Shown here piece by piece: positions 36,109 to 64,000 of a stretch of 64,000 nt of DNA; positions within the stretch are counted from its first letter, which is position 1, and each line of letters opens with the position of its first letter. Under the pieces are notes generated by a model. The model searched no databases and was not told the DNA's origin. It saw nothing but the letters and a program-made list of their open reading frames with translations. The stretch spans positions 62,001-126,000 of the forward strand of contig NZ_SWBO01000010.1 in assembly GCF_005116475.1 (NCBI RefSeq), in the 5' to 3' direction. Made by a program: the position numbers and the translations under genes. The DNA comes from Pedobacter cryotolerans. Lineage in GTDB: Bacteria > Bacteroidota > Bacteroidia > Sphingobacteriales > Sphingobacteriaceae.

Positions 36109-36203
36109 ATCCCTCCTAAATCCTCCCAAAGGGAGGACTTTGTATAATTTTATATTTTTAGCTCCATAAAGCCCCTCCATTGGAGGGGTTGGGGAGGATT
36201 TAA
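36109..36203. repeat. Composite palindromic element between GMC and Gfo/Idh genes
   Basis: One module, CTAAATCCTCCCAAAGGGAG (hairpin CCTCCC-AAA-GGGAGG), touches the Gfo/Idh start codon with only two bases between. The second module, CCCCTCC-ATT-GGAGGGG (36172-36188) plus TTGGGGAGGATTTA, contains the TAA stop of the GMC gene. The outer ends ATCCCTCC and GGGGAGGAT are inverted copies. Confidence 0.7.
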
Positions 36204-58552: not shown

Positions 58553-58585
58553 TCCCTCCTTTTTGAGGAGGTTTGGGGGGATTTA
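58553..58585. repeat. Palindromic element overlapping the DUF5686 stop codon
   Basis: TCCCTCCTTTTTGAGGAGG followed by TTTGGGGGGATTTA: hairpin CCTCC/GGAGG plus a G-rich tail. The TAA stop of the DUF5686 gene (58583-58585) forms its end, as in the copy at the GMC stop. Confidence 0.65.
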
Positions 58586-61033
58586 CAAACTATAGGCAAT
58601 TCTAAATCCTTGGTCTACTTTTTTGCTACCATCATAAGCATAACCGTAACTTACACCAAAACCAAAACGTTCTATACCGAAGTAAAATTCTTTATAGTTC
58701 TTTTTATTGGGTTGGGTTAAATAACTAACGCCAATAATTTCTTCGAATTTAAGCTTACGCAACAAAGGAATTTTATTGATCAATAAGCCACCAAAATTAT
58801 GTTCAATATGTGCTTCTGCAAAATGCCTGTCGGTGCTGTATTGGTAAAAGTCTAAAAACCTAAATTTTCTTAGGTTGGGAGGGAAGATTGTAGAATTATT
58901 TCCTCTAAAATGTTTGCTATCTGGATAAAAAACAACGTTATTGTTTAAGAATTTGCCTGCTCCAACAACAAAAGAGAAATAGCCAAGTAAACCAGCGCTA
59001 ATTCTTTCTTGATAAATTTCGAGCCCTAAATAATCATAATCAACGGCGCTATTTAAAATTCCTTTAAAACCTTTTCTATAATTTAATTGAAAACGAGGAT
59101 ATTTTGATTCCTGATAAAATTTACCATCTGGCCTAGTAATATAAGTCTGCCCAATTGTATAAACTAAGGTGGCCGATATGTTAAAAGAGGCGTAAGTTGG
59201 AAATAAAGGAGTTTCTAAACTTGGAGTAAAAGGATTGTTAGACGTAAAAGCTTTGTCTGAAACATCTCTAAAACTATAATTGCTAGTGTTTTGAAGAGTT
59301 TGATTTCTAGCATATTCAATATTAGCATAAGCTTGTAGTCCATCTGCTAGTTCTCTTGTAGAATTTAGTGTAAAAAACTCTTTTTTATAAAGCTTAAGCA
59401 AGTTTGTTTCAAACACCAATGAGTTGATTGTATTTGAACGTAAACTCATGGTTCCATAACTGTTTAAATCTGCAATTGAGGTTCCAAAACTTGCACTTAC
59501 ACTTGCTCTTTTAAGTGGGTCGTAATAATAACTTGAGCTTAGGTTTGCCGTAAAAATTTTATTGCTGAAACCATATCTAGCTTCTGGTCTTATCGAAAAA
59601 CTTTTTCTATCCTCAAAATTCTTTCTAAATGTAACGCCGTATCTCAAAGCGAGTCCTTCAACAGTGTTATAAAATACAGAAGTAACTAACGGGTCAAAGG
59701 ATATATATTTTTTTTCATACCTGTTATTAATGGTGTAACCTGAAAAAAATAGCTTCCCAATCCCGAACTTATTGTTTTTACTTTCTAAAGAATCTAGATA
59801 AGGTTTTGATTGTTTGAGCAAAGCAACACTATCCTTCTTTTTATAGTCAAATTTTTCTTCTTCGGTTAATGGTATTGGCCTATTGTTCATCCAGTAAAGC
59901 GAATCTTTTTTATTTACGGCTTTAGTAACTTTTAAAATTTCAGCAGTAAAGAATTTCTCAGGGAAATTGGGTTTAATATTGTAATTGCTATAAATGCCAA
60001 TAAAATATCCTTCGAATTTAAATTTTAAAATACCACCATTAAACTGAAATCTAATACTCGATGGCATGTAAACATCTTCAATTTTTACAAATTGTTGGCT
60101 TATATTTAAAGTATCTACGAAATTTATGCCTGCATCTTCTGTTAAATTAAGGTTTGTGCCTAATAATCGCCAGCTCTCATCAGTAATATAAATAATACCT
60201 CTAAAAACGGGATCATTTTTACGTCTGGGTATTACTTCAATTTTATTGATCGTTACTCCATTTTCTTCTGAACTTCCTAAAAGTTTGTATCTATAGTAAA
60301 ATAATGCATTGTCAGCTATTGGCGAAACAAAACTTCGCCCACTTAAACCTGTGTTTTCTAACATCAAATTTTCATAAAAATTTACAATTAAATCTGAAGC
60401 TTTATTGAAACTGAATGCATTATTGTTGCCAGATACTTTAGAAGACACCATTTCTTCGTGAATTTTGTTTGGTCTTTTAAAGCTGAAAGTAGATTGAGTT
60501 TCTGATAGGTATAAAATCCCTTGTCTGTTGGTGTCTAAGTCTAATGTTTTTTGAATATCTCTGCCCATAAATTTTTTGGGCGCACTTACCAATTTTTGTA
60601 ATCCTTTAGTGTAAACGTCGGTACTAAAGGCTTCAACTTCGTTTAAATGTTGTTTTCTTAATTTAATAGCTTGTCTTATAATTTCGTAAGCCAGGTCTTC
60701 TGCATTTGGTCTAATCACTACATTATTTAAGGTATAACTTTCTGTAGGCAAAGCCTGATTTAAAGTTAAATTACCATTCACCTGTATGTTTCTTTCGGTA
60801 GTTTTAAATCCGATAGCAGTATAAATTAAAGTGTAAGAACCTTTGTCTAAATTAATGGTATACATGCCATTAACATTTGCAGAAACGCCTTTGCTGGTAT
60901 TTTTGATATATATTGATGCAAAAGGAATTACTTCGCCATTGGTTTCGGTAATTTTTCCAGTGATTTGATATTGCGCTAATGATAAGCTTGTTAGCGTTAA
61001 AATAAAAACAATCGAGAGAAAGATTTTCTTCAT
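58583..61033 (-). CDS. DUF5686 / carboxypeptidase-like regulatory domain protein
   Basis: The ATG at 61033 gives the signal peptide KKIFLSIVFILTLTSLSLAQ. A CarboxypepD_reg-like domain (YQITGKITETNGEVIPFASI to about residue 105) is followed by about 700 residues of DUF5686, with FRGIIYITDESWRLLGTNLN, ISQQFVKIEDVYMPSSIRFQ and many beta strands ending FGVSYGYAYDGSKKVDQGFR. It is probably an outer membrane barrel. Function is unknown; members are abundant in Bacteroidota. 816 residues. Confidence 0.9.
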   Translation of the reverse strand: MKKIFLSIVFILTLTSLSLAQYQITGKITETNGEVIPFASIYIKNTSKGVSANVNGMYTINLDKGSYTLIYTAIGFKTTERNIQVNGNLTLNQALPTESYTLNNVVIRPNAEDLAYEIIRQAIKLRKQHLNEVEAFSTDVYTKGLQKLVSAPKKFMGRDIQKTLDLDTNRQGILYLSETQSTFSFKRPNKIHEEMVSSKVSGNNNAFSFNKASDLIVNFYENLMLENTGLSGRSFVSPIADNALFYYRYKLLGSSEENGVTINKIEVIPRRKNDPVFRGIIYITDESWRLLGTNLNLTEDAGINFVDTLNISQQFVKIEDVYMPSSIRFQFNGGILKFKFEGYFIGIYSNYNIKPNFPEKFFTAEILKVTKAVNKKDSLYWMNNRPIPLTEEEKFDYKKKDSVALLKQSKPYLDSLESKNNKFGIGKLFFSGYTINNRYEKKYISFDPLVTSVFYNTVEGLALRYGVTFRKNFEDRKSFSIRPEARYGFSNKIFTANLSSSYYYDPLKRASVSASFGTSIADLNSYGTMSLRSNTINSLVFETNLLKLYKKEFFTLNSTRELADGLQAYANIEYARNQTLQNTSNYSFRDVSDKAFTSNNPFTPSLETPLFPTYASFNISATLVYTIGQTYITRPDGKFYQESKYPRFQLNYRKGFKGILNSAVDYDYLGLEIYQERISAGLLGYFSFVVGAGKFLNNNVVFYPDSKHFRGNNSTIFPPNLRKFRFLDFYQYSTDRHFAEAHIEHNFGGLLINKIPLLRKLKFEEIIGVSYLTQPNKKNYKEFYFGIERFGFGVSYGYAYDGSKKVDQGFRIAYSL

Positions 61034-61115
61034 AAAGGTGTTAAAGTGTAAATATCGCTTTAGTTGCAAAACTTAACGTATTTAATGTGTTAAAGTTTGT
61101 TAACGTGCAAAATAT

Positions 61116-63428: not shown

Positions 63429-64000
63429 ATGTTGCAAGACCAGATCACACAATATACAGCAGAAATAAATGCGTTTGATACTAAAAATGCAGATGAGCTG
63501 GAACAATTTCGTATTCGTTTTTTAGGTACAAAAGGCATTATTAAAGATATTTTTGATGAGTTTAAAGCCGTTTCTCCTGAAGAAAAAAGAACTTTAGGGA
63601 AAGTTTTAAACGAATTTAAGCAATTAGCCGAGGCAAAATATCAAGCTTTAAATGAACTAACGGAAAACTCTAAACTGCAAACTGAAAACTCCCAACTAGA
63701 CATGACTTTGCCTGGTGAGGGTTTTGAAGTTGGTGCTCGCCATCCTTTAGCTTTAGTGAGAAGAGAAATCATCGAGATTTTTAACAAACTAGGTTTTAGC
63801 GTGGCTGAAGGGCCAGAAATAGAAGATGATTGGCATAATTTCTCTGCATTAAACTTTCCAGAAGAACATCCGGCAAGAGATATGCAAGATACCTTCTTCA
63901 TTAAAAAAGCTGATAGCTCCCTCTCTACTGGAGAGGGTCGGGGTGAGGCTAAAGGTGATATCGCTCTACGTACACACACCTCTTCTGTTCAAGTTCGTAT
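63429..64000 (+). CDS. pheS: Phenylalanine-tRNA ligase alpha subunit, N-terminal part
   Basis: The gene runs off the right edge; 190 codons are visible. The coiled-coil N-terminal domain (MLQDQITQYTAEINAFDTKN, FRIRFLGTKGIIKDIFDEFK) leads into the catalytic core: ARHPLALVRREIIEIFNKLG FSV, EGPEIEDDWHNFSALNFPEE HPARDMQDTFFI and, after an unusual segment, LRTHTSSVQVR. The segment between FFIKK and LRTHTS is KADSSLSTGEGRGEAKGDIA, longer than the usual few residues. It is encoded by a palindromic repeat (63917-63948). The frame stays open through it. Confidence 0.95.
   Translation, partial: MLQDQITQYTAEINAFDTKNADELEQFRIRFLGTKGIIKDIFDEFKAVSPEEKRTLGKVLNEFKQLAEAKYQALNELTENSKLQTENSQLDMTLPGEGFEVGARHPLALVRREIIEIFNKLGFSVAEGPEIEDDWHNFSALNFPEEHPARDMQDTFFIKKADSSLSTGEGRGEAKGDIALRTHTSSVQVR
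63917..63948. repeat. Palindromic repeat inserted in frame within pheS
   Basis: CTCCCTCTC-TACT-GGAGAGGG followed by TCGGGGTGAGG. The stem is CCCTCTC (63919-63925) with GAGAGGG (63931-63937) and the G-rich tail is that of the stop-codon elements. It encodes SLSTGEGRGE within PheS. Confidence 0.75.

Follow-up and report, generated by a model that had tools for sequence, protein, structure and literature searches.

A palindromic insert in the pheS gene of Pedobacter cryotolerans and palindrome-bracketed, unspliced DUF559 endonuclease units

The spread of short palindromic repeats, and the entry of some of them into essential reading frames without killing the cell, pose a long-standing question. 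The palindromic elements of Rickettsia, as described in the available text of a 2013 survey (PMC3733652), are short, present in many copies, and located both between genes and in frame within conserved genes. The same text defines the CGTC REPs by a CGTC, TGTC, or CCTC tag abutting a stem of 8 to 9 bp that starts with AT, together with a CCA-like tail, assigns the Rickettsia conorii elements RPE-4 and RPE-6 to this class, and reports no dedicated transposase as apparent for it. The words endonuclease, DUF559, GIY-YIG, and transposase are absent from the main text, as available, of a 2025 REP survey (PMC12306157). In the open-access literature (subscription papers and preprints lay outside the search), we found neither a link of DUF559 or GIY-YIG to palindromic repeats nor an in-frame insertion of DUF559 in essential genes.

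Here we analyze a palindrome within pheS of Pedobacter cryotolerans. Taken alone, this insert is another protein-coding palindrome; the novelty lies in the palindrome-bracketed, unspliced endonuclease unit. We consider it fairly probable that the insert in pheS represents a non-autonomous solo copy of the ends of such a unit, the enzyme being a DUF559 (Vsr-like) endonuclease.

The pheS insert and its copies in the host genome

The window, i.e., the entire stretch of 64,000 nucleotides that was analyzed, contains the following features.

63429..64000, plus strand: 5' part of pheS (phenylalanyl-tRNA synthetase alpha), the host gene, from the ORF listing, cut by the window end
63915..63950, plus strand: solo palindromic element (element A), AGCTCCCTCTCTACTGGAGAGGGTCGGGGTGAGGCT, 36 nt or 12 codons, read as SSLSTGEGRGEA in the pheS frame
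63919..63937, plus strand: hairpin of element A, stem CCCTCTC/GAGAGGG (arms 63919-63925 and 63931-63937), loop TACTG (5 nt)
63938..63948, plus strand: tail of element A, TCGGGGTGAGG
36111..36137, minus strand: palindrome with the layout of element A and another sequence, head-to-head with 36172-36197
36172..36197, plus strand: CCCCTCCATTGGAGGGGTTGGGGAGG, inverted partner of 36111-36137, close to where two minus-strand ORFs meet
58555..58580, plus strand: CCTCCTTTTTGAGGAGGTTTGGGGGG, element A layout, adjoining the ORF at 58583-61069

The start of pheS (ATG at 63429) is our choice, and the complete ORF (L001) matched PF01409 (E 1e-96) and PF02912 in the Pfam scan. The stem of element A is followed by TC and then GGGGTGAGG; its ends, AGCT and GAGGCT, were set by the majority of the nine copies in the host genome. 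Four of the six frames of the 36-nt element are stop-free. The original prediction had placed an in-frame palindromic repeat at 63900-63965, which was right to within the flanks. It had further likened the insert to intergenic elements of the window; the likeness held for the layout, which is that of the palindromes at 36111-36137, 36172-36197, and 58555-58580, whereas their sequences differ. The pheS-type element itself is present as a single copy within the window, where its second half, GAGAGGGNNGGGGTGAGG, occurred once with up to three mismatches, versus 0.04 occurrences expected from shuffles.

We then compared this site with those of relatives. The host PheS loop reads KKADSSLSTGEGRGEAKGDI, and the carrier is the only pheS match of the genome. 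All 19 other genus members examined possess a short loop, KKGGExGDI (RKGGENGDI in one case), that is equal in length among them and free of the element, rather than a segment as long as that of the host with unrelated DNA. The loop is also empty in the closest relative (G125), whose PheS is 95% identical. In a sequence alignment with solved PheS chains, the insert faces a gap that directly follows the DTFYF strand, and on this basis the predicted tolerance of the insert in a surface loop near motif 2 appears correct. A set of 50 pheS loci, consisting of the 30 best and 20 picked by us, some of them for a split alignment, contained (i) other solo palindromes in the same loop (L068 and L072), (ii) pairs of inverted palindromes separated by a short spacer (L077, L078, and L079), and (iii) loops that look like degenerate remnants (L080 and L074). 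The PheS loop has been struck repeatedly by palindromes. Another type of in-frame repeat was noticed in the host pheS at window positions 63658-63702, which read TENSKLQTENSQLD (AACTGAAAACT units); repeats of this type are present also at the leuS junction of two relatives (L174 and L177).

A search of the whole genome (G000, 4.25 Mb) yielded nine exact matches to the layout of element A and none to a reversed control pattern. Five of the copies are in long host frames, namely, pheS, kdpB, ileS, and twice leuS, and the other four are outside long ORFs; the names kdpB and ileS are ours, based on the sequence, and Pfam gives general families. Folding energy was discarded as proof of the element, since the value for a single copy is unremarkable (z of -1.5). 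A chance palindrome is ruled out by the genomic copies, the zero count of the reversed pattern, and the low expectation in the window. That a variable linker merely drifted into a palindromic form by accident is hardly credible; the PheS loop is indeed variable in length in the family, but there are nine near-identical copies, the sites of relatives are empty, and the dispersal of the copies through the genome refutes this reading.

Both kdpB and ileS of the host carry a pair of inverted palindromes. At the kdpB site, 17 of the 18 readable genus-mates (of 19) are empty and one (G153) has a similar pair; the ileS site was readable by motif in 2 of the 19 genus-mates, both of which are empty, one of them being 94% identical. 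The empty sites of pheS, leuS, kdpB, and ileS are variable linkers that differ in length and sequence, and target duplications and exact insertion boundaries are for this reason unreadable. The right palindrome of kdpB (L347) seems to be split by another palindrome, CCTGCCGGCCGGACAGG, translated as LPAGRTGG, perhaps a nested insertion. In the small sample of the five in-gene copies (window 63915-63950, L003, L005, L007, and L008), element A apparently uses one codon phase in either orientation.

Element B (CCCCCTTTAGGGGGTTGGGGG) was found at 20 distinct genomic places (25 rows with overlaps; control, 0), and 8 of these are inside ORFs with Pfam matches. The hosts are a class-I glutamine amidotransferase (at the C-terminal end), GcpE/IspG (two), thymidylate synthase (thyA), HisIE, HisB (in the upstream part, which may precede the true start), and a DUF559-HisF fusion (two). 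The predicted resemblance to the protein-coding palindromic elements of Rickettsia was borne out by in-frame copies in conserved genes, i.e., pheS, kdpB, ileS, and leuS for element A and ispG, thyA, and hisIE for element B, and by their multicopy nature, which includes intergenic copies.

One candidate for moving such a repeat is a RAYT-type (Y1_Tnp) transposase, as with GTAG REPs, and the host genome contains four Y1_Tnp matches. However, element A was present within 1.5 kb of none of the four, the sole match there having 4 mismatches in 16 fixed bases; Y1_Tnp was rejected as the partner, and we judge its involvement very improbable.

Palindromes around DUF559 endonuclease domains

In leuS, the two copies of element A stand in opposite orientation on either side of a DUF559 domain (PF04480, E 1.5e-34), which is fused in frame between LeuRS domains at the SVGASVKF/YIEVFTTRVDT junction. 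In bracketed DUF559 loci, the tail (of the TCGGGGTGAGG type) points away from the nuclease. Among 30 leuS loci (L157-L186), 28 were readable at this junction; the domain is present in 15 (L157-L171) and missing in 13, including G125. No second LeuRS of comparable score was among the matches listed for the host genome. Three more DUF559 domains of this genome (L015, where it precedes HisF in a fusion, L016, and L017) are each flanked by palindromes with the layout of element A and another sequence. A self-splicing intron or an intein around the nuclease was ruled out: no Rfam family reached the threshold in 11 tested DUF559 loci, Pfam scans of DUF559-bearing ORFs revealed no intein domain, and no stop interrupts the host frame across the insert. 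The leuS site of L183 contains both palindromes and a short spacer without nuclease, and its right end resembles that of the full unit in L038; such an arrangement would result from an internal deletion. The other double palindromes show no visible remnant of a nuclease. Further repeat-like inserts were seen at the leuS junction of L179, L180, and L182.

To quantify the bracketing, we surveyed 151 genomes of the host's bacterial family, of which 89 had a DUF559 match and 68 a strong match by our cut (E < 1e-20). From these, 94 DUF559 domains at 93 loci (L014-L046 and L097-L156) were picked mostly by score, as a subset of all matches. The two 300-bp flanks of each domain were compared, an inverted repeat being scored at 16 or above, and windows of the same loci shifted by 1 kb served as controls. 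An inverted repeat of at least 16 was found around 62 of the 94 domains and in none of the 183 shifted windows. When flanks were mixed between loci, the number was 15 of 281, which would be expected from repeat families common to several loci. A C-rich hairpin was present in both flanks of 60 of the 94 domains versus 0 of 183 shifted windows, and in 6 of 989 windows from pheS, leuS, ileS, and kdpB loci.

Bracketing of DUF559 by inverted palindromes recurs across phyla. The sample from other phyla comprised 80 named-genome loci (the best among 581 confirmed stretches that a Bacteroidota-derived motif had retrieved) and 5 loci from a plasmid collection. C-rich hairpins were detected in both flanks of 51 of 82 DUF559 loci (3 of the 85 having been dropped for short flanks) versus 2 of 153 shifted windows, and the inverted-repeat test was positive for 38 of 85 scored domains versus 2 of 159. 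About one-third of the DUF559 loci, namely, 34 of 94 in the family and 31 of 82 in other phyla, had no hairpins on both sides according to the detector used. The loci of the plasmid collection were picked by us from 40 and 34 records so as to cover a range of species. Of its DUF559 loci, 11 in all, 7 had an inverted repeat of at least 16 (two from Deinococcus and one each from Pseudanabaena, Picosynechococcus, Azospirillum lipoferum, Sinorhizobium meliloti, and Sphingomonas), and 4, from Escherichia coli and three others, had none of this score. The palindrome-bracketed Sphingomonas gene (L390) separates sufB from sufC in a plasmid operon.

At the genome level, element A was carried by 44 of the 68 genomes with strong DUF559 matches versus 7 of the 83 others. 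Phylogeny accounts for part of this correlation, the Fisher p of 1e-13 becoming 0.004 in a within-genus permutation.

Of the 178 DUF559 domains used for the tree, 79 are in frames of at least 300 codons. Their hosts are HisF (22), LeuRS at a first site (18) and at a second site (2), methylmalonyl-CoA mutase (6), Lhr-like helicase (2), and others (29). A Pfam scan of 20 chosen ORFs confirmed as hosts LeuRS- and IleRS-type synthetases, methylmalonyl-CoA mutase, Lhr, an HrpA-type helicase, UvrC, a lumazine-binding (riboflavin-synthase-like) protein, an MmeI-like restriction enzyme, HsdR, a GHMP kinase, chorismate synthase, and uroporphyrinogen-III synthase. The palindromes are translated as linkers, such as SLTPTLSEGEGA or SLSLGEGRGEA. 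The residues D, E, D, and H, which are catalytic in related nucleases, are retained in 177, 178, 177, and 177 of the 178 domains, respectively. The DUF559 profile matched 3HRL, a relative of solved structure, and, weakly, 3R3P (a mobile intron protein; E 6e-6), the latter being I-Bth0305I, a Vsr-like (EDxHD) homing endonuclease. DUF559 is hence a nuclease of a family that includes homing enzymes, and its catalytic residues are intact. In the available text of a study of Caulobacter (PMC12907096), the DUF559 protein VsrA was required for the SOS response in cells lacking a methyltransferase; a member of this family can therefore act on DNA in cells.

The tree was based on a short alignment, and many of its forks are open. 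The HisF inserts form one group (100/94), as do those of methylmalonyl-CoA mutase (97/76), whereas the first-site inserts of LeuRS need four changes, at least two of which are forced by well-supported branches. The leuS site was entered at least twice. The single groups of HisF and the mutase indicate that these inserts may be long retained, as would be the case if the nuclease or the added loop were kept as a useful domain helpful to the host protein. However, the hosts are unrelated, insert-free relatives are common, and the same palindromes are found alone and between genes; we regard such a benefit as a quite unlikely explanation.

GIY-YIG genes and CGTC-type repeats

Small GIY-YIG ORFs were intended as the control nuclease. 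Thirty loci were taken from the same 151 genomes, and 25 remained after five short ones (L277, L280, L281, L283, and L286) had been dropped. A flanking inverted repeat of at least 16 was found in 9 of the 25, and a [CT]GTCA tag was present in both flanks of 12 of the 25 versus 1 of 50 shifted windows. Since this control was also flanked by inverted repeats, bracketing is not unique to DUF559; the remaining negative controls are the shifted windows of the same loci and the 989 windows of other loci. None of the 25 had a C-rich hairpin in both flanks. A CGTC-type tag was present in both flanks of 0 of 94 DUF559 domains of the family and of 1 of 82 in other phyla, and on these counts DUF559 was dropped as a partner of CGTC REPs. 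The C-rich hairpins of DUF559 and the CGTC/TGTC tags of GIY-YIG appear therefore to be matching, separate palindrome classes.

A set of 17 small GIY-YIG loci from named records, 12 of which were picked by us, included S. meliloti, A. lipoferum, Novosphingobium aromaticivorans, and Neisseria gonorrhoeae. An inverted repeat of at least 16 was found in 15 of the 17, and for 11 of them the detector used gave CGTC-type hairpins on both sides. The corresponding controls for this hairpin were 4 of 62 shifted windows (of GIY-YIG, DUF559, and UvrC loci) and 0 of 3 UvrC loci. CGTC/TGTC-tagged REPs were seen to bracket small GIY-YIG genes among L272-L301, L367-L372, and L376-L387. One locus (L292; G113:C1:2472620-2474980) contains seven tandem GIY-YIG ORFs with identical scores and a regular spacing of 358 bp.

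Possible mobilization and comparison with known systems

We infer that the palindromes are mobilized by DUF559, and the following sequence of events is conceivable. (i) The mobile unit would consist of two inverted 36-nt palindromic ends with DUF559 as the sole gene and no splicing part. (ii) DUF559 would cut or nick the empty target site. (iii) In a homing-like manner, the break would be repaired with a copy of the whole unit or of a single hairpin end. (iv) Solo and double palindromes would be partial copies or products of internal deletion. (v) The unit would persist because its ends and gene are stop-free in the frames used and because its landing sites are tolerant loops and domain junctions.

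The chief rival has the palindromes as targets, i.e., DUF559 (and GIY-YIG) genes home into the gaps of existing pairs while something else spreads the palindromes. The nuclease-free double palindromes with short spacers in pheS, kdpB, and ispG would agree with this, as would the repeated entry into leuS and the fact that CGTC REPs are mostly head-to-head dimers according to the available text of PMC3733652. However, no other enzyme was found near element A, none of the four Y1_Tnp genes of the genome having it within 1.5 kb, and the two nuclease classes are paired with palindromes of different classes, so that we hold this rival to be unlikely.

If mobilization by DUF559 is extended to both nucleases, a general class of minimal mobile elements can be proposed, in which a small endonuclease gene is combined with inverted palindromes of a matched class (DUF559 with C-rich and GIY-YIG with CGTC/TGTC palindromes, including neisserial and alphaproteobacterial ones). 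The nuclease would then be the missing mobilizer of transposase-less repeats, possibly RPE-4 and RPE-6, and the units would be installed unspliced in essential proteins. Our own judgment on this extension is evenly divided.

DUF559 is a testable candidate enzyme for one palindrome class, and the natural full, double, and solo copies can be compared; the bracketed endonuclease unit makes the movement of the repeat directly testable. The data also indicate that leucyl-tRNA synthetase, methylmalonyl-CoA mutase, and other proteins can accommodate an unspliced endonuclease domain of approximately 105 residues, which is relevant for annotation, protein evolution, and the choice of tolerant insertion sites.

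Several known systems share features with these units. (i) Like MITEs, element A occurs as non-autonomous short inverted-repeat copies beside a full element; however, its units are single hairpins of about 36 nt, the enzyme is no known transposase, and no target duplication was seen, the empty sites being variable linkers. (ii) The Vsr-like homing endonucleases of the I-Bth0305I type (3R3P) are related nucleases by profile and share the presence/absence pattern in conserved genes, whereas the DUF559 unit has no intron or intein in the loci scanned, remains part of the host protein, and is terminated by palindromes. (iii) GTAG REPs with RAYT genes (REPtrons) likewise combine small palindromes with a palindrome-flanked gene and dispersed solo copies. 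Their enzyme is a tyrosine transposase, and none of the host Y1_Tnp loci is flanked by element A; the enzyme here is a Vsr-like endonuclease, and element and nuclease are often inside host frames. (iv) The CGTC/TGTC/CCTC REPs (Di Nocera 2013) are also palindromes that are partly intragenic and often in inverted pairs, but their tag, stem, and CCA tail differ from element A, whose stem is CCCTCTCC and whose ends are those given above, and their partner here is GIY-YIG rather than DUF559. (v) The palindromic elements of Rickettsia, as far as described in the available text of PMC3733652, are alike in being multicopy short palindromes found between genes and in frame. They differ in sequence, and the genome studied here also has element A on both sides of an endonuclease gene. 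Since the repeats bracket DUF559 endonuclease genes, the resemblance to Rickettsia comes with a candidate mobilizing enzyme.
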